From: a virus
Direction: 5' to 3' (one strand)
IMG/VR virus record: IMGVR_UViG_3300010373_000113
Coordinates: 1-28,010 of that record
DNA: 28,010 nucleotides
Below the pieces are notes generated by a model. It searched no databases and was not told the origin of the DNA. It saw only the letters and a program-made list of their open reading frames with translations. Of the stretch, positions 2,202-27,847 are shown piece after piece; positions within the stretch are counted from its first letter, which is position 1, and every line of letters starts with the position of its first letter. Both the position numbers and the translations under genes were made by a program.

Positions 2202-2576
2202 ATGAAACGCATCATTCTTTGCACCGTCTCCGCGCTTGCCTGCCTCGCCTTCACTGCCTGTTCGTCGACCCAGCAGGCAGGGATCAACACGACGCTCGCG
2301 AACCTGAATCAGACCAACCTGCTCGCATTGCAGACCATAAGCAACGGCTGCAAGATCGTGCAGCCCACGCTGGTCGCTGCCGGCACTGCCAGCCCGCAAG
2401 TCGCCGCTGCCGCCGCCGTCAATGGCGTCGTATGCGCGACTGCTGACGTCGCCACGAGCGCGGCAAGTGCCGCCGTCGCAGCGCAAGCACCGGCGCCGCC
2501 CGCTGCACCGGCGCCGTCAGTTTCACCAAGTAGCACTGCAACCGCTGCACCGGCGGCTGCGTCGAGCCCGAAATGA
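2202..2576 (+). CDS. Phage lipoprotein, possible outer-membrane spanin-like component
   Basis: A 124-residue protein starting with a type II signal peptide: positive MKR, a hydrophobic core and the lipobox FTAC with Cys20 as the lipidated residue. The mature part is Ala-rich and ends in a Pro/Ala/Ser-rich tail (APAPPAAPAPSVSPSS). Outer-membrane spanins (Rz1) are Pro-rich lipoproteins, so a spanin role is possible, but Rz1 is usually shorter and embedded in or adjacent to Rz, and here the only TM/helical candidate lies four genes upstream. The start follows GAAAGGACAC. The last four bases overlap the lipase start (ATGA), so lipase translation is probably coupled to it. Confidence 0.65.
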   Translation: MKRIILCTVSALACLAFTACSSTQQAGINTTLANLNQTNLLALQTISNGCKIVQPTLVAAGTASPQVAAAAAVNGVVCATADVATSAASAAVAAQAPAPPAAPAPSVSPSSTATAAPAAASSPK

Positions 2577-3160
2577 CTCCCCGCGCCTACGCCATCCTCG
2601 CGCAAGAGGCATACGACGCGGCGCCGGACATCGGCGTCGAGGCAAGCGCCTCGCGCGCGATCGTCAGGAACACCGACGACGGTCTCTGCGTGATCTTCCC
2701 CGGCACCGACAACCTCGCGTGTTACGCCGCAGACTTCGATATCAGCCCGCTCGATGTCGCAGGTGTCGGGAAGGTCTATAAGGGGTTCTGGGATGCGTGG
2801 AGCGCTATCTCTCTGCCGGTCATGGCCTGCGCTGCGGGCGTGCCTGTAACGCTCGTAGGGCACTCCCTAGGGGCCGCTCTGGCGCTGATGTGTGCTGCCT
2901 ACATGACCGTCGGCGGGAACCCGCCTGCGGCCGTGTATGCGTTCGAACCGCCCAGGGTTGGCGTCGACCTCGGCATCCGCGCGGCACTGGCCAATGTCCC
3001 GGTCCATCTGTATCGGAACGGAAAAGATATCGTGACCGAGCTTCCGCCCGGCGGTTTCCACGCTGCCCTGCTGACACCGATCGGCCATCCGGCGTTGCCG
3101 TTCAACAATCTGGTCGATCATGAGATCGCGCGGGTGATCGCGGCTTTTCCTGAAAACTAG
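2573..3160 (+). CDS. Class 3 lipase-like alpha/beta hydrolase
   Basis: A 195-residue protein with the lipase class 3 layout. Residues 92-106 read VTLVGHSLGAALALM, giving the nucleophile elbow G-H-S98-L-G. YAFEPPRVG (122-130) corresponds to the family's TFGxPRVG strand, NGKDIVTELPP carries the likely acid Asp152, and VDHEIARV the likely His183. VIFPGTDN (40-47) matches the oxyanion-hole strand region. No signal peptide is seen. It should hydrolyse ester bonds, but the substrate (membrane lipid, wall ester or other) is unknown. The gene overlaps the lipoprotein by ATGA and ends the lysis block. Its TAG stop is interlocked with the integrase stop on the other strand. It may help disrupt the envelope at lysis or be a lysogenic-conversion gene. 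Confidence 0.85.
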   Translation: MTPRAYAILAQEAYDAAPDIGVEASASRAIVRNTDDGLCVIFPGTDNLACYAADFDISPLDVAGVGKVYKGFWDAWSAISLPVMACAAGVPVTLVGHSLGAALALMCAAYMTVGGNPPAAVYAFEPPRVGVDLGIRAALANVPVHLYRNGKDIVTELPPGGFHAALLTPIGHPALPFNNLVDHEIARVIAAFPEN

Positions 3161-4155
3161 AGACGAGCCGCGATGTCCTCCGACGACTCGCGGTAATAGA
3201 CCTGTTGCAGTATCCGCAGATCCTTGTGCCCGCTGATCTTCGCGAGCGTCATCACGTCGACCTTGCGTGACAGGCGCGTCAGCGCTTCCGCGCGCGAGTC
3301 ATGAAAGTGCAAGTCCTCGATCAGCAGCTTGTCGCGGGCCTTGCGGAATATCGCGTCAAGCGTCCCTGACGACACAGCAAAACATTGCTCGCGCTCAGCC
3401 ACAGGACGCAGCAGGCGCACCGCATGGCGCGACAGTGGAACCTCGCGCGGCCGGCCGGTCAGATACTCCATCTTGTGGTGAACCGTGGCGACCCGGCGCG
3501 TCAGATTCAGCGTGCGCGCGCCAAGGCTCAATATCTCGCCGGCCCGCATCGCCGTGCGCAGCCCGACCAGAAAGGCAAGCGCCACGTCCTGACTCTTTGT
3601 GACCGGCGCGTGACCGCTGCGATATCCGAGCGCGCGGCAGATCAGCTTGACCTCGCGCGGCGATACCCGGCGGATGCGGGGCGGCGTCTCGGCAGGCATG
3701 CGGAATCCTTCGAACGGCTTATGCTCCATCCAGTGCCATTCCTCGCGCGCGATATTGAACGCGTTGCGCAGCCAGTTAATATCGCGCTGCACGGATGCGG
3801 GCGTCACGCCTGCCTTCAATCTGTCGTCCCGCCATTTCCCCAGATGGGGAGTCTGGATCTGCGACAGGGTGAGATTCGCGATCTCCGGGAAGTCCCTGAT
3901 TAACGCCTTGATGCGCAGCACTTCGGCGCGCTCGCCGCGCTTCTGGGGGGAGATCTCCTCCCCATAGCGTTTGAGCATGTCGCGCACCGTGTGCAAGTCA
4001 CCGGCTGGGACGGTCTTGAGGCGCCGCATTTCGATCTCGCGCGCGGCCGCCCATGACTTCGCCTCGCGCTGTGTGCGGAACACTTTGGAGTCACGCTCAC
4101 CGGCTACGTAGACCTGCGCGCGCCAGCCGTTTTTCTGTTGGGTGATGGAAGCCAA
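3157..4155 (-). CDS. int: Tyrosine recombinase, phage integrase
   Basis: A 332-residue integrase. The N-terminal AP2-like arm-binding region (residues 1-50, GWRAQVYVAGERDSKVFRTQREAKSWA) is followed by a SAM-like core-binding domain and the C-terminal catalytic domain. Catalytic residues are visible: Arg204 (TAMRAGEIL), His285 and Arg288 (HFHDSRAEALT), His310 (ISGHKD) and Tyr320 or 321 (QVYYRES). It integrates and, with an excisionase, excises the phage DNA. The start is a TTG at 4153-4155 with GGGA upstream; the next internal ATG would remove the arm-binding domain, so TTG is preferred. It converges on the lipase, sharing the bases CTAG at their stops. The att site candidate lies just upstream. 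Confidence 0.93.
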   Translation of the reverse strand: MASITQQKNGWRAQVYVAGERDSKVFRTQREAKSWAAAREIEMRRLKTVPAGDLHTVRDMLKRYGEEISPQKRGERAEVLRIKALIRDFPEIANLTLSQIQTPHLGKWRDDRLKAGVTPASVQRDINWLRNAFNIAREEWHWMEHKPFEGFRMPAETPPRIRRVSPREVKLICRALGYRSGHAPVTKSQDVALAFLVGLRTAMRAGEILSLGARTLNLTRRVATVHHKMEYLTGRPREVPLSRHAVRLLRPVAEREQCFAVSSGTLDAIFRKARDKLLIEDLHFHDSRAEALTRLSRKVDVMTLAKISGHKDLRILQQVYYRESSEDIAARL

Positions 4156-6995: not shown

Positions 6996-7580
6996 CTATG
7001 CGGCAGCTTGTGAAAGAAGGTCGCCGCCCCATTGGTCGGCCATTGCAAGGGCGATCCCGTCGTATGTCTTTGAGCGCTCGCGCGCGCGTTCCGGGCCGGG
7101 CGACATCTTGTGAATCCTGTCGGCGCGGCCGTCAACAATCTCTGTGGGCACCAGCAACGGCATACCTTTCAGCCATAGGCACGTCGCCTTCGTCTCGCCA
7201 TGGCCGAACTGCCATGGCTGGATCACTTGGTCTGGCTTGCGGTACAGCGAACTGATGATCGACACCGGCTGCTCGAAGCACGTCCGGGGGATGTGCGCAG
7301 ACCGGCGCATGAGTTTCATGAAGAACGCAACGCCTGCCGCCTGCCGTCCGTCCATCCACTTTTCCGCAAAGTGCCGCGCGCCACTGACTGACGTATGAGT
7401 GCATGGCGGGTGGAAGATGGCGAGATCCCACGGATAGTCGATCACGTCGAAAATATCGCCCTCGTAGTGCGGGCCGCGCGATCGCGTCGGCATCAGGTCG
7501 CACGAGAGAACCTTGTGGCCGCGTGCGGCGAATGCATCTCGCACGGTTCCGGATTCTTCGCAGCCGATAAGCACGTTCAT
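6996..7580 (-). CDS. Cytosine DNA methyltransferase-like protein
   Basis: A 194-residue protein starting MNVLIGCEESGTVRDAFAARG, an AdoMet-binding type motif I as in C5 cytosine methyltransferases. D28 (SCDLMP) matches the ribose-binding acid, and IFHPPCTHTS has the PPC catalytic Cys60 (motif IV). TCFEQP (101-105) stands where the ENV/ENP motif VI is expected. A later FGHGETKATCLWLKG segment is typical of the short phage version of this family. It may modify phage DNA against restriction. At under 200 residues it lacks an obvious target-recognition domain, so activity is uncertain. The ATG at 7580 is preferred over 7640, which runs into upstream sequence. Confidence 0.72.
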   Translation of the reverse strand: MNVLIGCEESGTVRDAFAARGHKVLSCDLMPTRSRGPHYEGDIFDVIDYPWDLAIFHPPCTHTSVSGARHFAEKWMDGRQAAGVAFFMKLMRRSAHIPRTCFEQPVSIISSLYRKPDQVIQPWQFGHGETKATCLWLKGMPLLVPTEIVDGRADRIHKMSPGPERARERSKTYDGIALAMADQWGGDLLSQAAA

Positions 7581-7654
7581 ATCAGTCTCGAAAAAGCGGG
7601 GCCGGTCCTGCGCCCCTTCAAACACACACGCGGAGATCACCGCGCGTTCGGGGG

Positions 7655-8161
7655 TTACGCTGCAAGCGAACGCTGCTTCTCGCTAGGCGGCTTCAGGCTC
7701 AACTCGGTTTCAAGCTGGAGCAAGTGATCGATCTTTCCCTGATCGGTCGCGCTCGGGTGCGCAACAGCCTTGAACTTCGTGATGACCGTTCCGCCATCCT
7801 TGCAATCGAACGTGAAGCCGCCGAGATCGACGCCATCCAGTACGATGTCCTGCTTCCCGCTCGCGCCGACGTGCAGATGCAATTCATAGCCAGCGCCTTC
7901 CCATTCGAACTTGAGCGGCATCCCGAGCTTCGGAAACTTCAGGCACGTCAGGCCGCCCATTTCGTCGTCGACAAGAAACGTAGGCCGCTCGTCGTGGCTA
8001 TATAGCGCGTGGCGAAGCTGAGAATCGAACTCGGACAGGACAAGATTCGTGCTGCTCATTTCGAATGTGACGCAGCAGGCCGCAACGCGCGTGCTTCCGC
8101 GCAGTTCGGACAGGACGGTAACAGCGACGATTCGGGCTTTCGAGTGGAACAGAGAGAACAT
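7655..8161 (-). CDS. Hypothetical protein of recombination block
   Basis: A 168-residue protein with strong ribosome site AAGGAG seven bases from the ATG. It is beta-rich in the middle (LTCLKFPKLGMPLKFEWEGAGYELHLHVG, then IVLDGVDLGGFTFDCKDGGTVITKFKAVAH), suggesting a compact beta fold, and ends in a charged helix. It lies two genes downstream of the YqaJ/RecT pair and could take part in phage recombination or early control, but no family is recognised. Confidence 0.65.
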   Translation of the reverse strand: MFSLFHSKARIVAVTVLSELRGSTRVAACCVTFEMSSTNLVLSEFDSQLRHALYSHDERPTFLVDDEMGGLTCLKFPKLGMPLKFEWEGAGYELHLHVGASGKQDIVLDGVDLGGFTFDCKDGGTVITKFKAVAHPSATDQGKIDHLLQLETELSLKPPSEKQRSLAA

Positions 8162-8182
8162 TTTTTCTCCTTCGTGGGATGG

Positions 8183-8428
8183 TTAGGCGGTGGGTATTCC
8201 GCGCTCGTCGAACTGCAAGCGGTTTTCGGGAGACGTCTGGTACTTGTCCTCGTGCTCGGTGTATTCCTCGACCGTCTGCATCGTGTAATGCGGAGTCCCG
8301 AGCTTGGGATGCGTGAGCGCAGCTATCTGGCCTAGCATTTCATCCCACGCGAGACGATCGGCGGTGCGGCCGTTCTCGGTGACTGCATAGCCTTGGTCAT
8401 TTGCGAAAGTGATAGTGATTTGGCGCAT
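8183..8428 (-). CDS. Small hypothetical protein
   Basis: An 81-residue protein, MRQITITFANDQGYAVTENG at the start, then a helical part and TPHYTMQTVEEYTEHEDKYQ. The beginning looks like two beta strands. Its start overlaps the exonuclease stop (TAATG), so it is coupled to the YqaJ-type gene. No function recognised. Confidence 0.62.
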   Translation of the reverse strand: MRQITITFANDQGYAVTENGRTADRLAWDEMLGQIAALTHPKLGTPHYTMQTVEEYTEHEDKYQTSPENRLQFDERGIPTA

Positions 8429-9108
8429 TACGCAGCCCTCGCTTCAAGTTGCTCGATCATCGACTGCGCTTCCTGCTCAAACTGAAGCAGACCCGGCAAC
8501 AGCACCTTGTCGATGTACTCGTTGTCGCGCTCGATGCGCTGATGGAACAGCCGGAATCGCGCGGCGACGCGCGGGTCGTATGAGACGAATTCCCACCAGA
8601 GGCGACCGGTCACGAGCATGCAGCCCTGAACCTGCGGCTTGTGTTCTTCGGGCATGCCGCAGAGCCACGTGTTGATGTGCACGGCTTCATCCATTGGGCA
8701 CTTCGATTCGTAGCCGCCATCTGCGCCTATGAGACCGTCCGGCGAGCATCCGATGAACGGATACTTGGGATGAGTCACGAAGTGTCCAGGCAGAACGATG
8801 TAGCCGGTCTCCAGTTCGAACACTTCCTTGCCGAACGACTCAACATCAGAGCCCCAGCGCGTGGCATAGCCGCCGACTTCATGCGTCGGTGCGAGCGAAA
8901 GGCGCTCGAACACGATCTCGCGCATGTACTTGTTGCGTGCCGCGGTCGAAGTCGACAACTTCGGTTGACCCTTGCGCGGCCCTGACTTGAACACTTCGCC
9001 AGGCTGAACGTCGGTCAGGGCTATAGCGTCGCCGAAACGCGATGCAGTGATCTTGCCGGCGCGCGCCAGACGCCATGCGTCGGTTCCTTGCTCGATCACG
9101 TCACTCAT
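8428..9108 (-). CDS. YqaJ-type viral exonuclease (lambda Exo-like)
   Basis: About 226 residues. The N-terminal EQGTDAWRLARAGKITASRFGDA is the opening signature of YqaJ/lambda exonuclease proteins. The nuclease core appears as IGCSPDGLIGADGGYESKCP, i.e. the D...ExK metal-binding motif of the PD-(D/E)xK fold, and later QVQGCMLVTGRLWWEFVSYDP supplies the usual C-terminal core strand. It resects double-strand ends 5' to 3' to make ssDNA for the annealing partner encoded just upstream (RecT). The ATG at 9108 with AAGG upstream is preferred to the GTG at 9117. It overlaps recT by 8 nt. Confidence 0.9.
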   Translation of the reverse strand: MSDVIEQGTDAWRLARAGKITASRFGDAIALTDVQPGEVFKSGPRKGQPKLSTSTAARNKYMREIVFERLSLAPTHEVGGYATRWGSDVESFGKEVFELETGYIVLPGHFVTHPKYPFIGCSPDGLIGADGGYESKCPMDEAVHINTWLCGMPEEHKPQVQGCMLVTGRLWWEFVSYDPRVAARFRLFHQRIERDNEYIDKVLLPGLLQFEQEAQSMIEQLEARAA

Positions 9109-9865
9109 TTCCGGCACCTTCAGATTCGCCTGTAAGCGTCTTGAGGCGCTTCAGTTCGTCCGGGCCGATTGCCTTGCGGTCTTCCTTCGACATGCGTCCC
9201 CAGGCGTTTGCAAGAGGCTCTGAACCGCCTTCCTTGGCGACTAGCTCAAGGTCGGCAATCATGCTCAGCAAACGGTCGTCGCGCTCGGCAGGTTTCGGCA
9301 GAGCAGCGGCGGCGATCTCAGCGCCCGATACATGGCGCGATGGCGTAATGTCTTTCTCGCCAGCAGGGAAATCCATCACTTCTTCGGCGAGCTGGATGCC
9401 CTTCAGCACGTCGGCGAAGTTGTCGCGAATGGCAAACGAGCGCGCGCGCATCTTCTTCATGCGCTGGGGATATTGAGACCACGGTCCCTGCTTTCCGCTC
9501 AAGCCAGCTTTTTGCGCCTCGGCATCGCCAAAGCGCTGAATATCTTCCGGCTTGCCGCGGCGCTTCACCTTGCAGAAGGCAGTGCCGTTTTCTTCCCACT
9601 CGTCGATGTACTCGCAGAGCGGCGAGGCGAGCACCAGAGCCATCACAGCGTCTCCCCAAAGGGAAGGGCGACCGTTGATAACGGCAATGTTCTGCATGGC
9701 CTGCATGGGCTTTAAACCAAGCTCCATGCCCCATTGAATCGCGACTAGAACATTGCCCGGCTTGCCGATGAAATCCTTCGGAACGATGCTTGAATCAGCG
9801 AGGATTTCGGCGAGCTTCATGGCTTCGTCGAGGCTCTTGGGCGACAGGTCTACGAGGTCATTCAT
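9101..9865 (-). CDS. recT: RecT-family ssDNA annealing protein
   Basis: A 254-residue protein with the RecT core: AMKLAEILADSSIVPKDFIGKPGNVLVAIQWGMELGLKPMQAMQNIAVINGRPSLWGDAVMALV, where 'GLxPxxAxxnIxvIxGRPxxwxDxxxALV' is diagnostic. RMKKMRARSFAIRDNFADVLKGI is the second conserved block. The C-terminal ~80 residues are variable and charged. It coats ssDNA and promotes strand annealing with the exonuclease encoded downstream, as in Red/RecET systems. The start has GGAG eight bases upstream and is the only good one. Confidence 0.93.
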   Translation of the reverse strand: MNDLVDLSPKSLDEAMKLAEILADSSIVPKDFIGKPGNVLVAIQWGMELGLKPMQAMQNIAVINGRPSLWGDAVMALVLASPLCEYIDEWEENGTAFCKVKRRGKPEDIQRFGDAEAQKAGLSGKQGPWSQYPQRMKKMRARSFAIRDNFADVLKGIQLAEEVMDFPAGEKDITPSRHVSGAEIAAAALPKPAERDDRLLSMIADLELVAKEGGSEPLANAWGRMSKEDRKAIGPDELKRLKTLTGESEGAGNE

Positions 9866-15414: not shown

Positions 15415-15992
15415 GCACCGCGGTTTCTGTGCTTTTCGCTCGCTCGGATTCGATCTACAAAACGATCGACGGCTGCGACGTGTGGGACGCCGATCGTGAT
15501 GCACGTAACTGGCCGGGCGGCTCTCCAGTCGTTGCGCATCCGCCGTGCAGGACATGGGGAAGTCTGAAGACCAAAGCGAAGGCGCCGGCCGGTGAGAAGC
15601 ATCTTGCCCTTTTCGCTCTGGCGATGGTCCGCCAGTACGGCGGTGTGCTCGAGCATCCTTGGCAATCAGACCTCCGCGCGCAGCCTGATATGCCGGCGGT
15701 CGGGCGCCGTGACGTTTGGGGTGGATGGATTCTCCCGATTCGTCAGCATTGGTTCGGCCACAAGGCGATAAAGCGAACCATGCTCTACATCTGCGGCTGC
15801 GAACCTCGAGAAATCCCGACTATGCCGATGGAACTAGGAGAGGCATCGCACACGGTCGGTCTTTGGTCAGGCCGCGATCGGGATAACTGCAAGCCCGGAT
15901 TGCCCAAAAGTGAATTCGACAAGACGCCGCCTGCGCTCGCCGAATGGCTTGTCGAACTCGCGCGGCGCTGCACGATCAGGGAGGTTGCTTGA
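15411..15992 (+). CDS. Second PPC-type methyltransferase-like protein
   Basis: A 193-residue protein. VVAHPPCRTWG carries a PPC motif (44-46), GGVLEHPWQS a motif VI-like E-H-P (81-83), and HWFGHKAIKRTMLYICG parallels the FGHGETKATCLWLKG segment of the gene at 6996-7580. The two proteins are thus distant relatives. Here the AdoMet-binding N-terminus is poor (VLFARSDSIYKTIDGCDVWD lacks the usual glycines), so it may be a degenerate or catalytically different member. It overlaps the resolvase by ATGA and is co-translated with it. Confidence 0.6.
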   Translation: MSTAVSVLFARSDSIYKTIDGCDVWDADRDARNWPGGSPVVAHPPCRTWGSLKTKAKAPAGEKHLALFALAMVRQYGGVLEHPWQSDLRAQPDMPAVGRRDVWGGWILPIRQHWFGHKAIKRTMLYICGCEPREIPTMPMELGEASHTVGLWSGRDRDNCKPGLPKSEFDKTPPALAEWLVELARRCTIREVA

Positions 15993-16228
15993 TGGCCTCG
16001 ATCCTCCAGCTCGCCGGCATGCTCCCGCGCGACCCTCAGTTCCGCGCCTTCGTCTCGCAATACATGGTCCCGCCGCGCGAGCCAACCATCGACGAGGCCG
16101 CGTCGTTTATCCGGGCCGCATGTCACGTTGAGAGCCGCCGGCAGCTTGCCGTTGATCGCACGGCAGAGCGCAGGTTTCACCGATACATCCGCCTGCAATT
16201 CGTTGCGTGGCGATCGAAGCAGCACTGA
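15992..16228 (+). CDS. Hypothetical protein of nin-like region
   Basis: A 78-residue protein, MASILQLAGMLPRDPQFRAF then PTIDEAASFIRAACHVESRRQLAVDRTAERRFHRYIRLQFVAW. The pattern 'eAA.fiR..C.v.SRreL..d..a..rFh..ir..F..W' recurs in small proteins encoded near recombination/replication genes of GC-rich phages; the role is unknown. The start overlaps the previous stop (TGATG), with GAGG upstream. Confidence 0.65.
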   Translation: MASILQLAGMLPRDPQFRAFVSQYMVPPREPTIDEAASFIRAACHVESRRQLAVDRTAERRFHRYIRLQFVAWRSKQH

Positions 16229-16248
16229 CCACAACTCGGGGAAACACC

Positions 16249-16596
16249 ATGCGACCACGCAAAACCAGACTCCCTCTAACCCTCGATTCACTGGTCGCTC
16301 TCATGATCCCCGGGACGCCCTACACCGCGGCCAAGCTGTCCTGCATCTTCGACGGTTCGCCGGAGGCCATAGCGGCGGTTCTGGCGACTCTCACGGCCAT
16401 TGGCAAGGTGGAGACATCGCTGCCGGAATGCGGGCGCTACAGGGACCAGCGAGAGACGCGGCGGATCTACTGGCTCCCGCTCTACAGCTCGCCGAATGTC
16501 GCCCAGCGGCGCACCGCACCGGCTGAGATGGTCGGTGAGCTTGTCGGCTATGACCTGAGCCGCTTCCAACGCCTCGCAATGGCCACTCGACGCTGA
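16249..16596 (+). CDS. Hypothetical protein with possible winged-helix fold
   Basis: A 115-residue protein, MRPRKTRLPLTLDSLVALMI then PGTPYTAAKLSCIFDGSPEAIAAVLATLTAIGKVE. The segment TAAKLSCIFDGSPEAIAAVLATLTAIGKVETSL has helix-turn-helix and wing character and would suit a regulator; this position, at the end of the rightward early genes, is where a late-gene activator often lies. That is inference only. GGGGAAACACC precedes the ATG at 16249. Confidence 0.6.
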   Translation: MRPRKTRLPLTLDSLVALMIPGTPYTAAKLSCIFDGSPEAIAAVLATLTAIGKVETSLPECGRYRDQRETRRIYWLPLYSSPNVAQRRTAPAEMVGELVGYDLSRFQRLAMATRR

Positions 16597-16597
16597 G

Positions 16598-16627
16598 ATT
16601 GGCGCTGCCTATGCTCTCCCGCATCCA
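16598..16627 (+). promoter_or_regulatory. Promoter-like element, copy 1 (ATTGGCGCTGCCTA)
   Basis: ATTGGCGCTGCCTA at 16598-16611 is repeated exactly at 26780-26793, and the similarity continues (TGCTCTCCCGCATCCA versus GCATCTACCGCATACA). Read as sigma70, TTGGCG (16599-16604) and CATCCA (16622-16627) are 17 bp apart. It sits 16 nt before the ATG of the RMF-like gene. The repeat is certain; promoter activity is a guess, as the -10 is poor. Confidence 0.45.
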
Positions 16628-16642
16628 CAGGAGGGCATCGCC

Positions 16643-16819
16643 ATGCTGAGCCGCGACGACATCGAGAGACTGATGCGCGAAGGCGCCGAGGCTTTCGAAC
16701 GCGGCATGGGCGAAAACGTCTGTCCTTACCCGATGCTCAGCGCTCCGATGTGCACGTGGATGCGCGGCTATCAAAACGCGGCCTTTGGCGCCGCCCACCA
16801 GGAGAAGCACCATGTCTGA
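16643..16819 (+). CDS. Ribosome modulation factor (RMF)-like protein
   Basis: A 58-residue gene with an excellent site (CAGGAGGGCATCGCC before ATG). The product has the RMF layout: an N-terminal helix with EGAEAFERG (matching 'G..AG..G'), then ENVCPYPML with the invariant C27-P28-Y29, then WMRGYQNA (39-46, matching 'W..GW..A'). Length is close to the ~55 residues of E. coli RMF, which binds the 30S near the anti-Shine-Dalgarno region and drives 100S hibernation dimers. A phage copy could alter translation in infected or lysogenic cells. Its last 8 nt overlap the next gene. Assignment rests on motif order only. Confidence 0.72.
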   Translation: MLSRDDIERLMREGAEAFERGMGENVCPYPMLSAPMCTWMRGYQNAAFGAAHQEKHHV

Positions 16820-17513
16820 CGTTCAAGCGGAAGCGGCAGCGCGGTTAATTGCGCAGATCACTGCTGAGACCGGCGTTGCGCCGCAGGAGGTTGGCACGGC
16901 CACGGCGGGGGAGACACCTGCGGCACCTGCGGAGGCCGCACACGTCGATACTTCCGCTATGACCTCTGTCGGCGCTGTGGCATCGGCCGCGACTCAGGGC
17001 GTAGATGAGCTGGGAAACGTGCCTGCGGTTGCGGCGGCATCTGCGACGGAAGCTGCTACTGCTGAAGTCCCAAACGTCGCTGCCAGCACGTCGCCCGCTG
17101 GTGCTGCTACCGATGCCACTACGGCCGGTGAAGTCCCAAACGCTGTAGCCGCTGTCGACGCTGGCGCGCCCGAGGCTGGCGATGCTCATGCCGATGGTGG
17201 TGAACTCCCAAACGCTGCCTCGGTTGCGGGCGAGCCTACAACCGCTCTGGGCTCTGCATCGAATGCCGCTGGCGAAAGTATCACGTCCACCATCGGCGCA
17301 AGTTCCGTTGACGCGCTGCCTAAGAGCGTGGCCGCGCATCTGGAAGCGATCTATGCCTTGGTCGTTGACCATGTGACAGGCGAGCAACGCGGGCCCGATA
17401 CCGGCATGCTCAGGACACTGATCGGCGATGTCCTATACCGCATCAGCAACGGCATGGACGTGAGGCAGGGCGAGCTGGTGACGAAGCTCGAAGCGCTCTA
17501 CCAGGCGCTCTGA
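16812..17513 (+). CDS. Ala/Thr/Val-rich repeat protein upstream of terminase
   Basis: A 233-residue protein: N-terminal helix (MSDVQAEAAARLIAQITAET), a ~130-residue low-complexity middle rich in Ala, Thr, Val and Gly, and a globular C-terminus (PKSVAAHLEAIYALVVDHVTG, then GMLRTLIGDVLYRISNGMD). The middle contains imperfect ~22-24-residue repeats centred on EVPNVAA, GEVPNAV and GELPNAA. GGAGAAG precedes the ATG at 16812. It is directly before the small terminase (TGATG overlap), so a packaging or late role is possible, but no family is recognised. Confidence 0.6.
   Translation: MSDVQAEAAARLIAQITAETGVAPQEVGTATAGETPAAPAEAAHVDTSAMTSVGAVASAATQGVDELGNVPAVAAASATEAATAEVPNVAASTSPAGAATDATTAGEVPNAVAAVDAGAPEAGDAHADGGELPNAASVAGEPTTALGSASNAAGESITSTIGASSVDALPKSVAAHLEAIYALVVDHVTGEQRGPDTGMLRTLIGDVLYRISNGMDVRQGELVTKLEALYQAL
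17061..17217 (+). repeat. Imperfect tandem repeats in the Ala-rich gene
   Basis: GGTGAAGTCCCAAACGCTG (17127-17145) and GGTGAACTCCCAAACGCTG (17199-17217) differ by one base; a third, shorter copy GCTGAAGTCCCAAACG is at 17061-17076. Spacings are 66 and 72 bp, whole codons, so repeat number can vary without a frameshift. Confidence 0.7.
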
Positions 17514-17908
17514 TGGTCGCGCCCACTTTCACGCAAGAGCTCTTCGACAAGATCTGCGATCTGATCGCGGACGGAAAGAGCGTTCGTGAAATCTGCGAAC
17601 TGAAGGGCATGCCGCACCGCATGACGTTCAACAAATGGCGCAAGCGGACGCCGGAACTTCAGGCGCAATACGACCAGGCATATCGCGATTATGAGGACTC
17701 GACGCTTCAGGACATCGTGCATATCGCGGATTCGGAGGTCGATCCTCAACGCGCCAGGGTGATGATCGATGCGCGCAAGTGGGAGCTCAAGATCCGCAAC
17801 CGCAAGCGCTTCGGCGACCACATCACCGAGGAAGTGACCGGCCCGAACGGCGGCCCGCTTCAGGTCGTGCGCCTGCGCATGGCTCCCGTCGACGAGTTGC
17901 CGGAATGA
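17513..17908 (+). CDS. terS: Terminase small subunit
   Basis: A 131-residue protein. The N-terminal HTH (FDKICDLIADGKSVREICELKGMPHRMTFNKWRKRTPELQAQYDQA) is typical of small terminases that recognise the packaging site, followed by a helical oligomerisation region (DIVHIADSEVDPQRARVMIDARKWELKIRNRKRFGDH) whose 'aRkWe...l.pkryGd' pattern is widely shared. It lies just before the large subunit. The start overlaps the previous stop (TGATG). Confidence 0.87.
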   Translation: MVAPTFTQELFDKICDLIADGKSVREICELKGMPHRMTFNKWRKRTPELQAQYDQAYRDYEDSTLQDIVHIADSEVDPQRARVMIDARKWELKIRNRKRFGDHITEEVTGPNGGPLQVVRLRMAPVDELPE

Positions 17909-17950: not shown

Positions 17951-19417
17951 GTGGCCGCCGCCGGTGAGATCGACCTTCCGCACAACTGGTCGCCGCGCAT
18001 CTATCAGGGCCGACTCTGGAACGCGATGATCAGCGGCTGCAAGCGGGCCATTGACATCGCGCATCGCAGGTGGGGAAAGGACGATGTGTGCCTGCACTGG
18101 ACATGCCTTGCTGCCCATGACCGGATCGCAACCTACTGGCACATGCTGCCGATGGCATCGCAGGCGCGTAAGGCGATCTGGGAAGCCGTGAATCCGCATA
18201 CCGGCAAACGTCGCATTGACGAAGCCTTCCCGCATGAGCTGCGCGCGAGCACGCGAGAGAACGACATGATGATCCGGTTTCGCAACGGCTCGACATGGCA
18301 GGTGCTCGGCAGTGACAATTTCAACTCGCTAGTCGGCTCGCCGCCGGCCGGTCTGGTGTTCTCTGAATGGGCGCTCTGCAATCCGGCCGCGTGGGCTTAT
18401 CTGAAGCCGATCCTCGATGAGAACGGCGGCTGGGCGATGTTCATCACCACGCCGCGCGGCAAGAATCACGCGTTCAAGATGTACCAGATGGCGAAGAGCA
18501 ACCCGAAGTGGTTTGCCGAGGTATCGAGTGCCCTGAAAACCGGCCGCTTCTCGCGTGGCGAACTCGAAGAGCAGCGCGCCGAATACATCAGCATGTTCGG
18601 TGAGGATCAGGGCAACGCGATGTTCGAACAGGAGCTGATGTGCAGCTTCGAAGCGTCCATTCTCGGCGCCTACTATGGCGTAGAAATGGCGACTGCGGAG
18701 CGCGAAGGGCGCATCACCAGCGTTCCGCATGATCCGGCATTGCCCGTCTACACCGCGTGGGACTTGGGCCGTACTGACGATACATCGATCTGGTTCTTTC
18801 AGACGCATTGGGGTGAGATTCGCGTGATCGACCACTACAAGGCGAACGGCAAAGACCCGAAGCACTACGCCGAGGTTATCCACGGTCGCAAGATCGACGT
18901 GTCCGAGTATGGCCCGAACGGCAAGCCGGTGAAATGGAAGCTCGGCGAGCCGATTCCCGAACATGCTCACCATATCGCCTATCACTACGCGCGCCACTGG
19001 CTGCCGCATGACGCCAAGCCCAAGAGTTTCGCGTCACCGCGCTCGGCTATCGAACAGATGAACGATTTCAACGTGAAATCGTACATCGTGCCGAGCCTGT
19101 CAGTGCAGGACGGCATTCAGGCCGCGCGCGCCACGCTCAAGCATGTCTATTTCGACGCGGAGCGCTGCGAATACGGCATCGAGTCGCTCAAGAACTATCG
19201 GCGCGAGTGGGATGAGGACAAGAAAATCTTCAAAGACAACCCGGAGCATGACTGGACCTCGCACGCGGCCGACGCCTTCCGCTACATGTCGCTCATCTGG
19301 CGCAATCCGGAGTCCGAGAAGCCGATCGAGAAGCCGCGCTTCCTGCACGACATGACGGCCAACGAGATTTTCTGGCCGAAGCATGAGCAGGGCAGCGGCC
19401 AACGGGAGCGCATCTGA
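17951..19417 (+). CDS. terL: Terminase large subunit (ATPase/nuclease)
   Basis: A 488-residue packaging motor. IAHRRWGKDD (36-45) is the Walker A-like motif used by this family, AGLVFSEWAL (134-143) the Walker B with catalytic Glu140, and FITTPRG (165-171) the coupling motif. The RNase H-like nuclease begins at YTAWDLGRTDDTS (Asp272, Asp277) and ends with HDWTSHAADAFRY, the typical last acidic site. The start is a GTG at 17951 with GGGGG seven bases upstream; the frame is open back to 17909 without an ATG. It cleaves concatemers and pumps DNA through the portal encoded 4.5 kb downstream. The spike genes in between are unusual. Confidence 0.95.
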   Translation: MAAAGEIDLPHNWSPRIYQGRLWNAMISGCKRAIDIAHRRWGKDDVCLHWTCLAAHDRIATYWHMLPMASQARKAIWEAVNPHTGKRRIDEAFPHELRASTRENDMMIRFRNGSTWQVLGSDNFNSLVGSPPAGLVFSEWALCNPAAWAYLKPILDENGGWAMFITTPRGKNHAFKMYQMAKSNPKWFAEVSSALKTGRFSRGELEEQRAEYISMFGEDQGNAMFEQELMCSFEASILGAYYGVEMATAEREGRITSVPHDPALPVYTAWDLGRTDDTSIWFFQTHWGEIRVIDHYKANGKDPKHYAEVIHGRKIDVSEYGPNGKPVKWKLGEPIPEHAHHIAYHYARHWLPHDAKPKSFASPRSAIEQMNDFNVKSYIVPSLSVQDGIQAARATLKHVYFDAERCEYGIESLKNYRREWDEDKKIFKDNPEHDWTSHAADAFRYMSLIWRNPESEKPIEKPRFLHDMTANEIFWPKHEQGSGQRERI

Positions 19418-21036
19418 TGTACAGCACTCTCGACCTTCAGAAGCTCGTTCAGATGCTCAATTTTCTGGGCTTCGCTGGCAACATTGCGCCGCCTCATAGC
19501 GTAGTCATCGGTGGCGGCTGGGTCACGCCTGGCGCGAGCGGTACGCTGTTCGCATCGAACGGGCCGACCTTTGATCCGTCTTTTCAGACTCTCGCGGCGC
19601 TGGGCATTCAGGGAGCACTCGGCTACACGCCGGCGCACTCGGGCGCAAACTCGGATATCACATCGCTTCTCGGGCTCTCCACGCCGTTGTCGATCCCACA
19701 AGGGGGTACGGGAGCCAACACGGCGACCGGGGCACTCACGGCGCTCGGCGCGCAGGCTGCGTTAGGCTTTACGCCAGCGCACAGCGGCGCGAATACCGAC
19801 ATCACAAGCCTCGCGAACCCGGCCATTGGATCTGCGACAGCAACGACGCAGCCGCGAGGCACGAACAACACCCAGGTCGCCACCGCAGCTTTCGTTGCCG
19901 CGCATAGTGGTGCGATCAGCATCCTCGACCACGGCGGCAAGGGCGACGGCGTAACGGATAACACGGTAGCATTCAATGCGGCAGTCACTGCGGCGCAGGC
20001 TATTTTCCCTGACAAGGTAGCGATCGTATTTCCGCCTGGGAATTATTACTTCGCATCAGGCATCACCTATACGCACCCGTCCAGTCCCGCTTATGGGGCT
20101 GTCTCGTTTGTAGGTGCTGGCGTCGGGTCGACGCAATTGATCTTCGCTTCTGGCGTCGGAGTCGGGATCGCCATCACGCATCAAACGCTGTTCGATAACA
20201 CTGTCTTTCAGGGGATGACCATCCTCACGAAAGGAGTGGGGGCGGACATTGGCATCAAGCTCATCCTGAATACGGGACTCACGCCGCCGCTCGATAGCGC
20301 CGTGACATTCCGCGATGTGGACATGCGCGGCGCGGATGGCTTCGCGATTTCGCAATTCTGGAACTATTGCGTCTATGTGCTTGGCGTTTCCAACGTCAAT
20401 TTCTATAACTGCAATTTCAGCGGCATCACGAACGCAAACGCAACCGGCGTCTATGTTGTTGAGAACTCTCCGAGCCAGATCCCGGTTGTTTATAACTTCG
20501 TAGGGTGCCAGTTTAACTACATGGGCATCGGCTTCAACTATGGCGCCAATGTTCAGGGCGTTACCTTCACGGCGTGCAACTTCGTCGGCAACAATATCGG
20601 CATCTACATTGCGCCGAGCATCTCCGGAATGGATCAGCTGACCGTGACCGGATGCCAGTTCAACAGCTTCCAGAACAGCATATTTATCAACAGCCCATGC
20701 GGTGCTGTGTCGATCGTCAATAACTACTTCCTTGTTCAGCCGAATGCGAACGGAATTTCGATGAGCAACACGCTGGACTATTCGATCGTCGGGAACGTAT
20801 TTAACCCGACCATTATTCCGATCACGAATTCGAATGACATCGTGATTGGCGCATGGCACGACAACGCAGGGATCATCACTGGCAATTCGTTTCTCTATGC
20901 GACGACAGCTGTCACGCTCGGCGCGAGCAGCCAGTTCGTAAACGTTCAATCGAACGTCTATGCGCACTGCACATCGAACGTTTCCAATTCAGGCACGAAC
21001 AACACGCTCGGCGGCGTCACCGGTGCAACCAACTAG
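19417..21036 (+). CDS. Tailspike with pectate-lyase-like beta-helix
   Basis: A 539-residue protein. Residues ~65-135 hold two fibre repeats (GALGYTPAHSGANSDITSL and AALGFTPAHSGANTDITSL) around IPQGGTGANTATGALTALG, a pattern of tail-fibre shafts. At 168-190, ILDHGGKGDGVTDNTVAFN is the signature of pectate-lyase-type spikes, and the remainder has the short hydrophobic/Asn/Gly turns of a right-handed beta-helix (e.g. VSNVNFYNCNFSGITN, VTGCQFNSFQNSIF). Such spikes bind and often degrade capsule or LPS sugars. Its start shares a base with the terL stop (TGATG). Catalytic residues are not evident from sequence. Confidence 0.87.
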   Translation: MYSTLDLQKLVQMLNFLGFAGNIAPPHSVVIGGGWVTPGASGTLFASNGPTFDPSFQTLAALGIQGALGYTPAHSGANSDITSLLGLSTPLSIPQGGTGANTATGALTALGAQAALGFTPAHSGANTDITSLANPAIGSATATTQPRGTNNTQVATAAFVAAHSGAISILDHGGKGDGVTDNTVAFNAAVTAAQAIFPDKVAIVFPPGNYYFASGITYTHPSSPAYGAVSFVGAGVGSTQLIFASGVGVGIAITHQTLFDNTVFQGMTILTKGVGADIGIKLILNTGLTPPLDSAVTFRDVDMRGADGFAISQFWNYCVYVLGVSNVNFYNCNFSGITNANATGVYVVENSPSQIPVVYNFVGCQFNYMGIGFNYGANVQGVTFTACNFVGNNIGIYIAPSISGMDQLTVTGCQFNSFQNSIFINSPCGAVSIVNNYFLVQPNANGISMSNTLDYSIVGNVFNPTIIPITNSNDIVIGAWHDNAGIITGNSFLYATTAVTLGASSQFVNVQSNVYAHCTSNVSNSGTNNTLGGVTGATN

Positions 21037-21045
21037 GGATCAACA

Positions 21046-22122
21046 ATGAAACGGCTACTCACTGGCGCGCTCGCGCTTCTTCTCTCAGTCGCGGCATCTG
21101 CGACGACGCTTAACCCGATCCAGCTTCTCAACCCGACCGGATCGAGCAGCGGGCAGGCGATTGTTTCTACTGGCGCATCAAGCGCGCCGGCATGGGCGAA
21201 TGTGGCTGCTACAGCGCTCGCGGCTCAGGCGGCTAATACCGTGGTGGCGAACGTCACCGGGTCGGCAGCGAGCCCAACTGCAATCGCGATGCCGCTTTGC
21301 AATGCCTCAACTGCGGCGCTTCAATACACGACGGGCGGGTCAGGCTTTGTATGCAACACGTCGATCAATGCAGCAACACTCGGCGGAACAACATTCGCAG
21401 CACCGGGGCCGATTGGGTCGACCACAGCATCCACCGGCTCATTCACAACGCTCGCGGCGAGCAGCACGGTAAGCGGGACCGGGTTCAGCAACTATCTTGC
21501 CTCGCCGCCTGCGATCGGCAGTACGGCGGCCGGAACTGGGGCGTTCACGACGATCTCAGCGTCATCGACGGTATCCGGTACGGGCTTCTCGACCTATCTC
21601 GCATCGCCGCCGGCTATCGGTGGCACGGCGCCGGCCGCAGGGTCATTTACCACGCTATCCGCCACGAGCACGATAACGCCGTCGCAGACCGCTGGCATCG
21701 TCGGCACCACGACGAACAACAGCGCGAATGCGGGGAGCGTGGGCGAGGTCATATCAAGCTCGGTAGCATCGCCCGGGGTCTCCCTGACAAGTGCCTCCCC
21801 TGCGAACGTCACCAGCATCAGCCTTACTGCCGGCGATTGGGATGTGTGGGGAAATATCTATCCGGTTCCGGCGGGTTCGACTGTGATTGCGCAGGAGCGG
21901 GGCACGATTTCGACCACGACGGGATCTATTGGCACCTATGGCGATGCAGGCTCTTTTCTGCAACAGATAACGTTGACGGCTGGCGCGGCGAACACTATGA
22001 ACGTGGGACCAATCAGATTGAGCTTGGCATCTACCACGACTGTTTATCTTGTCACGCAAGAATCGTTCTCCACTTCAACCTGTACCGCATTCGGACAGAT
22101 TTTCGCGCGTCGGCGCCGCTAA
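21046..22122 (+). CDS. Repetitive fibre-like protein with N-terminal signal peptide
   Basis: A 358-residue protein. Residues 1-19 (MKRLLTGALALLLSVAASA) look like a Sec signal peptide. The middle contains a 34-residue repeat: IGST at 123, IGST at 157 and IGGT at 191, each followed by a GxFTTL/I-ASSTVSGTGFSxYLASPPA segment, typical of fibre shafts. The C-terminal domain (SVGEVISSSVASPGVSLTS, then SISLTAGDWDVWGNIYP) is beta-rich and resembles domains on phage fibres. A signal peptide on a putative virion protein is odd, since virions assemble in the cytoplasm; it may be surface-exposed or a hydrophobic attachment region. The start has a GGGATCAAC region just upstream. Confidence 0.72.
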   Translation: MKRLLTGALALLLSVAASATTLNPIQLLNPTGSSSGQAIVSTGASSAPAWANVAATALAAQAANTVVANVTGSAASPTAIAMPLCNASTAALQYTTGGSGFVCNTSINAATLGGTTFAAPGPIGSTTASTGSFTTLAASSTVSGTGFSNYLASPPAIGSTAAGTGAFTTISASSTVSGTGFSTYLASPPAIGGTAPAAGSFTTLSATSTITPSQTAGIVGTTTNNSANAGSVGEVISSSVASPGVSLTSASPANVTSISLTAGDWDVWGNIYPVPAGSTVIAQERGTISTTTGSIGTYGDAGSFLQQITLTAGAANTMNVGPIRLSLASTTTVYLVTQESFSTSTCTAFGQIFARRRR

Positions 22123-22132
22123 GGAGAGCATC

Positions 22133-23650
22133 ATGCTGAGGGCTGTATCTTCAAATCAGGTTGCTTCATGGAACCCGGCGCAGAATACACATGGGATCTT
22201 GCCGGGCGGTGCGGCTGCTCCGCTTTCGCCCGGTGTAACGGTCGTCGCGGCCAGCATGACCCCGAGTTCGTCAATTACGAGCACCACGCCGACCTTGGGC
22301 ACCATTCTTGACAGCATAAATTTGCCGGGTGGGGTAGTTGGCCCCGATGGCTGGTTCGAGCTATGGATCGATTGGACATGCAACAGCAGCGCGAATGTGA
22401 AATCAGTCGGCGTGTATTGTGACAATAGCGGCGCTAATATTGGCGACTCACAGACCACCACCACATCATCGACTTTTCTGGTTCGCATTGGCAACCGTAA
22501 TAACACCGCGGTTAACATGGCTACCAGTGCGCCACGTCCGGGGCAGTCCGCTACAGGCGTTCTCAACTTTACGAGGGACTTGTCGAAGGAAGGGAGTACC
22601 ATCGCTTTGTGGGCGTCTATCGCCAATGCGGCAGACAATATGCGCATCGAACGATGGATGCTGACTGCACATAACCCGCCGACATACAGCGCCCCCCGCC
22701 TGAAGTATGGAACGCCGATATTTTGGGGCGCCAATTCGCACTTCGATGATACGCAGTCGATCGCCATGCATATTGCTGGCATGAAAACGATGGGCATGAA
22801 GCTCATGCGTATTACTTGGGAAGGGGGTGGTTCACTCGCAACCATCCAGAGTTACGCGCAGGCTTTTCAATCAGATGGAACGGGGTTACAGCTTCTCGTA
22901 TGCCTCGATTTGAGTATTAGCCCTGACGGATCGAGTCTGTATTCCAGCGAAGCTGCTGCTTATAGTGCTGCGCACTCGGCTGCAGTCACCGTCGCGACAG
23001 CGCTCGCTCCTTATGGGGTGACGATGTTCGAATGCGGAAATGAAATGGATACAAAGTTCGGAATCAATACCGGAGACCCACAAGGCGGCTTGCCGACTGA
23101 TTTCGATAACACCAAAGTCTCCATCTTCCGCGGCATCCAGCGCGGGGCAATTGATGGAATTCATTCGGTGAATCCTGCGTTTATCGCATGCTCGAATGCC
23201 TATACGGTTTGCTCGATCGCACTGGCCGACATGATGTGGTACGGCACGAATCCGGACGGTTCAACGGGACATAACCTTGTCCGCTGGGATGTCACAAGCT
23301 GGCACAACTACGAGGATTACGGTCCGCTGATGGGCGTCGAAATGGGTAACACCCGCCCGTGGGTAAATATTTATGCCTATGCCAACCGGCGCTGGGGTGG
23401 CAAGCCGATCATGATCACCGAGTGGAACGGTAAATCATCGGATACCGATGCGCAGCGCGCGGCATGGGCATCGCGCTTCATGTATGAGGCGTACTCCAAC
23501 CGCTACAAATACAACATCGCCGCAGTTCTGGTTTATGAGTTGTATGGCGGCCCATGGAACGTGCTCGATGGAGTCGCAAATACTCCCATTAGCACCTTCG
23601 GAACTACGGTTCAATCCTTCATCACCAGCAACCCCGACACTGGACTCTAA
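22133..23650 (+). CDS. Spike protein with GH-A-like glycoside hydrolase domain
   Basis: A 505-residue protein. The N-terminal ~180 residues are Thr/Ser-rich and beta-like (DGWFELWIDWTCNSSANVKS). From ~190 a TIM-barrel-type enzyme begins: IFWGANSHFDD, GMKLMRITWEGGG, then MFECGNEMD with Asn303-Glu304, and PIMITEWNGKS with Glu430. An N-E pair as acid/base and a second Glu after a strand are the clan GH-A pattern (e.g. GH5, GH39). It may be a depolymerase of host surface polysaccharide, a fold less common than the beta-helix in spikes. The ATG at 22133 has GGAGAG; the frame back to 22049 overlaps the previous gene. Confidence 0.78.
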   Translation: MLRAVSSNQVASWNPAQNTHGILPGGAAAPLSPGVTVVAASMTPSSSITSTTPTLGTILDSINLPGGVVGPDGWFELWIDWTCNSSANVKSVGVYCDNSGANIGDSQTTTTSSTFLVRIGNRNNTAVNMATSAPRPGQSATGVLNFTRDLSKEGSTIALWASIANAADNMRIERWMLTAHNPPTYSAPRLKYGTPIFWGANSHFDDTQSIAMHIAGMKTMGMKLMRITWEGGGSLATIQSYAQAFQSDGTGLQLLVCLDLSISPDGSSLYSSEAAAYSAAHSAAVTVATALAPYGVTMFECGNEMDTKFGINTGDPQGGLPTDFDNTKVSIFRGIQRGAIDGIHSVNPAFIACSNAYTVCSIALADMMWYGTNPDGSTGHNLVRWDVTSWHNYEDYGPLMGVEMGNTRPWVNIYAYANRRWGGKPIMITEWNGKSSDTDAQRAAWASRFMYEAYSNRYKYNIAAVLVYELYGGPWNVLDGVANTPISTFGTTVQSFITSNPDTGL

Positions 23651-26764: not shown

Positions 26765-26779
26765 TCCGTTGCGGCGCTA

Positions 26780-26809
26780 ATTGGCGCTGCCTAGCATCTA
26801 CCGCATACA
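26780..26809 (+). promoter_or_regulatory. Promoter-like element, copy 2 (ATTGGCGCTGCCTA)
   Basis: Second copy of the 16598 element. TTGGCG (26781-26786) and CATACA (26804-26809) are 17 bp apart, 18 nt before the scaffold ATG. This copy has a slightly better -10. It would give head genes their own transcript. Confidence 0.5.
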
Positions 26810-26827: not shown

Positions 26828-27847
26828 ATGACGGTCGAAAGCGGTCAGGTGGGCGAAACGGGCGAAATCGAGCAGACAGCGGAACTGTCGCTGCGCGAGG
26901 AACTGGCGAAGAATCTGGCGGACCTGAAGGGCGAGCACGAAGAAGTCATCGAAACGCCGGTCGCCAAGGTCACTGAAACGGCGCCCGCCGAAGGCAAGAC
27001 CGAAACGGGGGTCGAAAAGCCCACCGAGACGGCAGCCGTCGAGCATAAAGCTCAAGCGCCGCGCGCCTGGTCAGCAACCGAGAAAGCGCATTGGGACAAG
27101 ATCCCCGCCGAAGTTCAGGCCATCATCGCGCGCCGTGAGGAAGAAGCCCACCGCGGCATTACCACGCTCGGGCAGGACGCCGCGCTCGGCAAGAAGCTGA
27201 AAGACGTTATCAATCCCTACCTCCCGATGATCCGCGCCGAAGGTGGCACCGAAGAAGGCGCGGTTCGGGATCTACTCCAGACAGCCTACATTCTGCGCAC
27301 CGGCAACCCTCAGCAAAAGGCTGAGGTTATGCAGAACGTCGCAAGACTGTATGGAGTGGATTTATCTGTCGCTGCGCAAGGCGTGCAGCAGGTCAACCCT
27401 GAGCTGCAATCACTCCGCCAGGAGATCGCACACCTCAAAGGTTATCTGGGCAACGCCGAGCAGCAGCAACATCAGCAAGTACAGGGGCAGGCTCAAGCCG
27501 TTATCGATGCCTTCGTTGCAGATCCAAAGAACGAGTTCTACGAACAGGTGAAGCCGCTAATGGCCCATCTCCTGATCGGTGGACAGGCCAAGGATATGCA
27601 AGAGGCGTATGACATGGCGTGTCATGCAAATCCTGATGTTCGTTCCACAATTCTGACCCGCCAAACGGCGGAGGCAGAGGCGAAGCGGGCAGCGGACGCG
27701 AAAGCGAAAGCTGATGCAAAGCGTAGGGCGGGAGGATCGGTTAGCGGATCACCGGCGGGCACTGTCTCGACGACGACCACCGCGAACCAGAACCTCTCCC
27801 TGCGCGATGAACTGCGGCAAGCAATGCGAGCCGCGACAACCTCGTAA
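26828..27847 (+). CDS. Scaffold-like protein upstream of capsid
   Basis: A 339-residue, very charged, mostly helical protein. The N-terminal third is acidic and low-complexity (GKTETGVEKPTETAAVEHKA), the middle has conserved-looking helices (PRAWSATEKAHWDKIPAEVQAIIARREEEAHRG), and a long Gln/Ala coiled region leads to a basic C-terminus (AEAKRAADAKAKADAKRRAGG). A basic C-terminus and position directly before the major capsid gene are typical of scaffolding proteins. A near-duplicate motif opens and closes it (LSLREEL at ~21, LSLRDEL near the end). GGGG precedes the ATG at 26828. Confidence 0.75.
   Translation: MTVESGQVGETGEIEQTAELSLREELAKNLADLKGEHEEVIETPVAKVTETAPAEGKTETGVEKPTETAAVEHKAQAPRAWSATEKAHWDKIPAEVQAIIARREEEAHRGITTLGQDAALGKKLKDVINPYLPMIRAEGGTEEGAVRDLLQTAYILRTGNPQQKAEVMQNVARLYGVDLSVAAQGVQQVNPELQSLRQEIAHLKGYLGNAEQQQHQQVQGQAQAVIDAFVADPKNEFYEQVKPLMAHLLIGGQAKDMQEAYDMACHANPDVRSTILTRQTAEAEAKRAADAKAKADAKRRAGGSVSGSPAGTVSTTTTANQNLSLRDELRQAMRAATTS

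Follow-up and report, generated by a model that had tools for sequence, protein, structure and literature searches.

An RMF/CrpP-fold phage protein encoded ahead of the terminase genes that lacks key ribosome-contact residues of RMF

Does a small phage gene that resembles the gene for bacterial ribosome modulation factor (RMF) encode a protein that acts on ribosomes, or has the same fold been put to another use? Public records label such phage genes 'ribosome modulation factor' (Streptomyces phage Gilgamesh gp51 and several BFVD entries among them), and the label implies a shut-off of host translation. We addressed the question for a gene in a virus record of 28,010 bases, part of a collection of viral contigs; the whole of this stretch of DNA is referred to here as the window. 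An earlier note on the window had read the gene as RMF-like.

A small gene under purifying selection

The gene (Table 1) encodes the 58-residue protein MLSRDDIERLMREGAEAFERGMGENVCPYPMLSAPMCTWMRGYQNAAFGAAHQEKHHV, in which motifs occur in the order found in RMF; the earlier note had delimited it exactly. The same type of gene is present in 18 viral contigs and in one prophage, that of Paraburkholderia madseniana RP11, with a further copy in a second Paraburkholderia genome (G044). Comparison of the window gene with its relatives gave dN values of 0.035-0.27 against dS values of 0.27-1.27. Because dN lies well below dS, the reading frame is a genuine gene, and it is under purifying selection.

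The claim that the gene has a strong ribosome site holds for the window, where AGGAGG precedes the ATG, but not for the family as a whole: the Shine-Dalgarno sequence is not kept in all relatives, and most of L040-L046 show GATGGAAAACTGGCG instead.

Table 1. Features of the window around the RMF-like gene and at the second copy of the promoter-like element
Feature	Position	Strand	Details
Upstream gene, 129 aa	16207..16596	+	sub-threshold FeoC-like match; upstream of RMF-like gene in most relatives
Promoter-like element	16587..16615	+	TCGACG, 17 nt, TATGCT; core TTNSCGCTGCCTA at 16599-16611; 27 nt before ATG
Shine-Dalgarno AGGAGG of RMF-like gene	16629..16634	+	8 nt 5' of ATG
RMF/CrpP-fold protein gene (P0001)	16643..16819	+	58 aa, Pfam and NCBIfam matches, AlphaFold2 model, low dN/dS
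Ala-rich gene, 233 aa	16812..17513	+	overlap with RMF-like gene kept in relatives
terS, terminase small subunit	17513..17908	+	phrog_1482 E 1.1e-33; overlaps Ala-rich gene (TGATG)
terL, terminase large subunit	17951..19417	+	phrog_2 E 4.3e-25
Second element copy	26769..26797	+	TTGCGG, 17 nt, TAGCAT; 30 nt 5' of gene at 26828
Scaffold-like gene, 339 aa	26828..27847	+	named by position and sequence character; no family match

Family assignment and predicted fold

We compared the protein with the Pfam RMF model PF04957, one of the two checks whose joint failure would, by the earlier note, refute an RMF relationship, and obtained 34.4 bits (cut-off 27.9, E 2.2e-8). A Streptomyces phage copy reaches 59.4 bits on the same model, so PF04957 fails to separate the phage relatives from cellular RMF. 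Among the NCBIfam models, that for the broad Rmf/CrpP subfamily (NF041886) is passed with 31.5 bits against a cut-off of 28, and the RMF equivalog model (NF011162) is missed widely, with 22.2 bits against a cut-off of 40. The top NCBIfam model is NF041887 (Rmf_like_phage, 'Rmf/CrpP fold protein'), which has a CPY ... W.RGY signature in common with the window protein and is matched by all 26 aligned members. The window protein itself reaches 33.7 bits where the curated cut-off is 40, which makes it a divergent relative of NF041887 and no formal member. Identity as CrpP was considered and rejected, the scores being 20 bits for NF033696 (CrpP_fam; cut-off 55) and 16 bits for CrpP_rel_fam (cut-off 35).

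A profile built from five cellular RMF sequences gave the window protein 17.6 bits, against 10.7 for the best of about 1,900 scored shuffles, and a profile built only from the Streptomyces phage relatives gave it 44.2 bits (best shuffle, 7.7). Profile-profile comparison with the five cellular RMFs returned a probability of 93.6%. By these scores the window protein is a divergent member of the phage branch of the Rmf/CrpP fold group. Its kind is a known one, with a catalogue entry of its own (NF041887).

AlphaFold2, given the window protein together with 25 relatives, predicted a two-helix hairpin (helices 4-19 and 34-56) with a mean pLDDT of 94. In a Foldseek search of the PDB the top three matches were the RMF chains 9iot, 6h4n and 2jrm (probability 0.94-1.00), with E values of 0.19-0.62 that are weak, as expected for so short a protein. 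VIA-align gave the RMF chains Z scores of 6.4-7.7 and one unrelated chain a Z score of 6.9, so the match to the RMF fold is by itself modest, and the homology to RMF is carried by the sequence. The model supports a two-helix fold that is the same as that of bacterial RMF, the layout whose absence, together with that of a significant HMM score, the earlier note would have taken as refutation; both are present.

Loss of RMF contact residues

Alanine at R3, K5, R11, G16, G23, C29, P30, W40, G43, W44 or R45 of RMF abolishes or nearly abolishes 100S formation, and R45 contacts C1536 of the anti-Shine-Dalgarno sequence (PMC8126665). The E. coli variants R3A, K5A, R11A and R45A retain ribosome binding and lose dimers, whereas removal of five N-terminal residues, or the changes G16A, C29A, W40A or W44A, stop ribosome binding (PMC8126665). 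We mapped these positions onto the window protein through a phmmer alignment to RMF and interpreted the result through the same mutagenesis data (PMC8126665).

Six core residues, G16, G23, C29, P30, W40 and G43, are kept as G14, G21, C27, P28, W39 and G42, and are invariant across the 26 aligned members. The query was what we take to be the E. coli RMF sequence; its residues 5-47 match the PDB chain in the alignment. R3 is without a counterpart in the window protein, K5 is replaced by S3, W44 by Y43 and R45 by Q44; R11 is retained as R9 in the window protein, and most close relatives have T, M or Q there.

The two ends of the protein differ as well. All four cellular RMFs that we fetched start with M(K/Q/R)R(Q/L)KRD and end with GWRE. 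Compared with E. coli and Vibrio RMF (PF04957; PDB 6h4n, 4v8g and 2jrm), with which it shares the two-helix fold and the Gly-Gly-CP(Y)-W-G core, the window protein is without the basic N-terminal arm (MKRQKRD) and the GWRE end, is acidic and is encoded in a probable phage late unit. Its net charge is -2 and its pI 5.8, whereas five cellular RMFs range from +4 to +7 and from pI 9.6 to 10.9.

The earlier note had looked to the dimerisation of ribosomes and the blocking of the anti-Shine-Dalgarno region for the function of the protein. The absence of R3, K5 and R45, the tyrosine in place of W44 and the acidic character of the protein speak against both activities, as do the loss of R11 in most relatives and the failed RMF equivalog model. 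By analogy with the mutants, loss of dimerisation is well supported, and loss of all ribosome binding is less certain: since the E. coli single mutants still bind, the loss of R3, K5, R11 and R45 need not by itself end ribosome binding. The window protein is very probably not a canonical hibernation factor, and the evidence from residues, charge and context makes the label 'ribosome modulation factor' unsafe for its branch of the family.

The probable first gene of a late packaging unit

The earlier note had placed the gene at the end of a rightward early operon, after a promoter-like element and before packaging genes. The element is indeed conserved in relatives, and terS and terL lie downstream in all the relatives compared. 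The operon assignment does not stand: the gene is instead the first after the promoter-like element and begins an overlapping run that leads into terS-terL. The order RMF-like gene, Ala-rich gene, terS, terL is constant in all relatives compared. The RMF-like gene thus appears to open a late packaging unit, its late timing being suggested by its position and by the element that it shares with other genes.

The Ala-rich gene has its ATG within the final codons of the RMF-like gene (ATGTCTGA) and its ribosome site, GGAG, within those for QEKHH. The overlap of stop and start reads ATGTCTGA or ATGACTGA in most relatives and ATGA in L048 and L049. Because the QEKHH codons carry the ribosome site and start of the next gene, their conservation is explained without a function in the protein; QEKHH as a functional C-terminal motif was rejected, as L048 and L049 have another end with the start/stop overlap still there. 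The Ala-rich protein, whose position is kept in relatives, has no match in Pfam, PHROG or PADLOC. PADLOC gave no match to anti-phage defence, and Rfam no match to a structured RNA in the window.

A simple scan of positions 15900-17000 found no sigma-70 promoter, and the promoter-like element surfaced through comparison of relatives, in which the 46-nt gap upstream of the RMF-like gene is conserved. With TAnnAT as a putative -10 hexamer and a weak -35 hexamer 17 nt upstream, the element resembles a promoter. The window contains the core, TTNSCGCTGCCTA, exactly twice (at 16599 and 26781), against 0.24 occurrences expected with one mismatch allowed. In the 11 records searched, the extended element has 24 distinct copies when one mismatch is tolerated, 23 of them on the late-gene strand; a reversed-pattern control gave 0. 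Between element and gene start there are 27-29 nt at the RMF-like gene (in one relative a possible earlier start is 15 nt away) and 30-33 nt at the scaffold-like gene. Copies also precede a third conserved gene (MKRIVWDQ...) or, in two records, another gene. In L049 the scaffold-like gene precedes one for a 329-aa major-capsid-like protein, so named from position and sequence character, with no family match.

The sequence TTnCCCGCTGCCTAnnAT (window 16599-16615 and 26781-26797; relatives in L126-L150) recurs up to four times in a phage genome, ahead of the packaging unit, of the scaffold/capsid unit and of the third conserved gene. We regard it as a candidate late promoter; its spacer is unusually conserved, and a phage regulator may bind it. 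The third copy of the element (L133, L135, L142 and L145-L147) precedes the gene for MKRI(V/I)WDQPERVM..FVA...GE, and between this copy and the gene start there is a conserved leader, TTTTCCATCTTCATGCA ... GTAAAAGGTGCGC, which may be a structured or regulatory 5' leader.

Linkage to head and packaging genes in two phage groups

We began tests for the presence of the RMF-like gene at neighbouring genes, which avoids the bias of starting from the gene itself. Among relatives of TerL with 79-90% identity and enough upstream sequence, the gene is present in all 16 (L085 and L094, with too short an upstream sequence, are left out of this count); among those with at most 56% identity it is present in 0 of 16, 11 of which have at least 2 kb upstream. 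Starting from the MuF/protease protein of Streptomyces phage Cumberbatch, we found an RMF-like gene 6-24 nt after the MuF gene in 23 of the 24 loci with at least 200 nt downstream. The exception, L168, is a shortened MuF match near a contig end.

The 23 Streptomyces-type loci that were found through the RMF-like gene agree with this arrangement. In each the gene follows MuF/protease, directly so in 22; in the other, L073, the aligned MuF ends early. Scaffold and capsid genes come next wherever the contig reaches and the genes are recognised. In two unrelated phage groups the RMF-like gene belongs to the core set and stays with head or packaging genes.

The Streptomyces phage proteins (gene 5/6 of SV1, Cumberbatch, Alderaan and Darolandstone) have about 36-48% core identity to the window protein where listed, and are like it in their W.RGY signature and late-module neighbourhood. 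They differ in lying between MuF/protease and scaffold/MCP, whereas the window gene is upstream of terS, and in having YARAR in the stretch of the second helix where the window protein has YQNAA.

Other phages have more distant counterparts. Gp51 of Streptomyces phage Gilgamesh has the RMF fold, adjoins hydrolase and major capsid genes and is weakly similar to the window protein. BFVD holds many phage proteins of the RMF fold, several of them already named RMF. RMF-fold genes lie among DNA-metabolism or unknown genes in Delftia phage IME-DE1, Caulobacter phages CcrBL9 and Cr30, Serratia phage PS2 and Rhodococcus phage Trogglehumper. A tblastn search for cellular-type RMF in phages, with cellular RMF as the query, returned one weak match (E 0.9). 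Our literature search for a tested phage RMF found an annotation-level mention alone, that of RMF-superfamily proteins noted by the annotators of Agrobacterium phage Milano (PMC6588377), which are likened to the window protein by annotation only.

RMF in the probable host

The relatives point to Paraburkholderia as the host of the window's phage. None of 59 genomes of this genus has a Pfam RMF match above the cut-off, and six have sub-threshold matches. This cut-off is no clean divider, as the P. madseniana copy of the phage gene type also falls below it. The sub-threshold matches L020 and L022-L025 are relatives of the window's phage gene or other Rmf/CrpP-like proteins, and the MKRQKRD...GWRE signature is absent from them (L021 and L026 were left out of this comparison). 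Paraburkholderia thus appears to be without RMF. P. madseniana, which carries the related prophage, has one HPF, without the long-form C-terminal domain. E. coli alone gave an RMF match among 14 control genomes. RMF has been reported only in species with short HPF (PMC6746590).

Paraburkholderia genomes (L021 and L023-L026) also contain other short and diverse RMF/CrpP-like reading frames that are sub-threshold for Pfam RMF.

Possible functions of the RMF-like protein

Because most ribosome-contact residues are lost and the gene stands at the head of a packaging operon, we consider a reused fold more likely than a ribosome silencer. We give about even odds to this reading as a whole, a phage-specific late protein of the RMF/CrpP fold that does not dimerise ribosomes and most likely binds another partner; 'fold reused for another job', the fallback of the earlier note, is the best fit among its readings. 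Such a protein would appear late in infection and come first among the products of the packaging operon (RMF-like, Ala-rich, TerS, TerL). It would have retained the core of the fold and given up the basic N-terminal arm and the anti-Shine-Dalgarno contact used on the 30S subunit; with these gone, we infer that it would form no 100S particles. Its partner most likely belongs to the late programme and probably acts in packaging or head assembly. We propose this packaging or head-assembly role tentatively, and only as a somewhat weaker conjecture the general form, in which at least two unrelated tailed-phage groups, with hosts from two phyla, have turned the RMF fold into a core late gene for packaging or head assembly in place of the ribosome. 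Against such a role, terminases that are about 50% identical work in phages without an RMF-like gene, and the RMF-fold genes of other phages lie in quite different neighbourhoods. That the gene keeps so strictly to packaging and head genes in two unrelated phage groups nevertheless offers a testable alternative to translation shut-off, and makes it a candidate for an unstudied core late gene.

To our knowledge, RMF proper has been characterised only as acting on ribosomes, and a changed mode of ribosome binding could be concealed by divergence. The protein could then be a late ligand of the 30S subunit or of S1 that uses the RMF fold without dimerising ribosomes, tuning translation to late phage messages or protecting ribosomes. 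The homology, the fold, plausible late expression and the binding retained by the four E. coli arginine and lysine variants favour such a ligand, and it would provide a translation-level switch in the late phase if ribosome binding persists. We nevertheless consider it unlikely, since the whole basic arm is reduced, in a protein that is acidic, and both removal of five N-terminal residues and W44A, at the position that is tyrosine here, stopped RMF binding (PMC8126665); the fixed position beside structural genes in two unrelated phage groups also counts against it. A canonical RMF, by which the phage would supply what the host lacks, pair with short HPF and make 100S particles that slow translation in the host or shield ribosomes during lysogeny, would suit a genus apparently without RMF and a P. 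madseniana HPF of the short kind, the only kind with which RMF is reported (PMC6746590). This was rejected as the likeliest reading on the failed interface residues and equivalog model, and is highly improbable: three residues that are individually required for dimers are missing and W44 is replaced, a lysogeny gene would not be expected in a late position or as a core gene, and the same kind of protein occurs in Streptomyces phages, yet E. coli was the sole control genome with RMF. The small size, single domain and several genomic settings across phages would fit accessory cargo (a moron) that acts on the host in a way involving neither ribosomes nor assembly, which we regard as improbable given the fixed position, the occurrence in nearly all members of both clades when the count starts from neighbouring genes and the overlap with the next gene, all unlike the usual behaviour of cargo. 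Least credible by far is a CrpP-type small enzyme or resistance-like protein, from the CrpP branch of the same fold; the weak NCBIfam matches that suggest it fall far below the CrpP cut-offs, and the neighbourhood has no link to resistance genes.

Other features of the window

Between terL and the portal gene (window 19417-23650) lies a variable tail-fibre/pectate-lyase-like cassette with about 31-70% identity to relatives, compared with 76-90% for TerL and 62-94%, mostly above 82%, for the portal protein. This low identity relative to TerL and portal suggests that the cassette is likely a receptor- or capsule-specificity module set amid the packaging genes. An integrase (3157-4155) and a leftward module (6996-9865, - strand) with genes for a RecT-like annealing protein, a RecE-like exonuclease and a DNA methyltransferase-like protein point to a temperate phage. 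A class 3 lipase-like gene (2573-3160; PF01764, 47.5 bits) lies near the endolysin gene and is possibly part of lysis.
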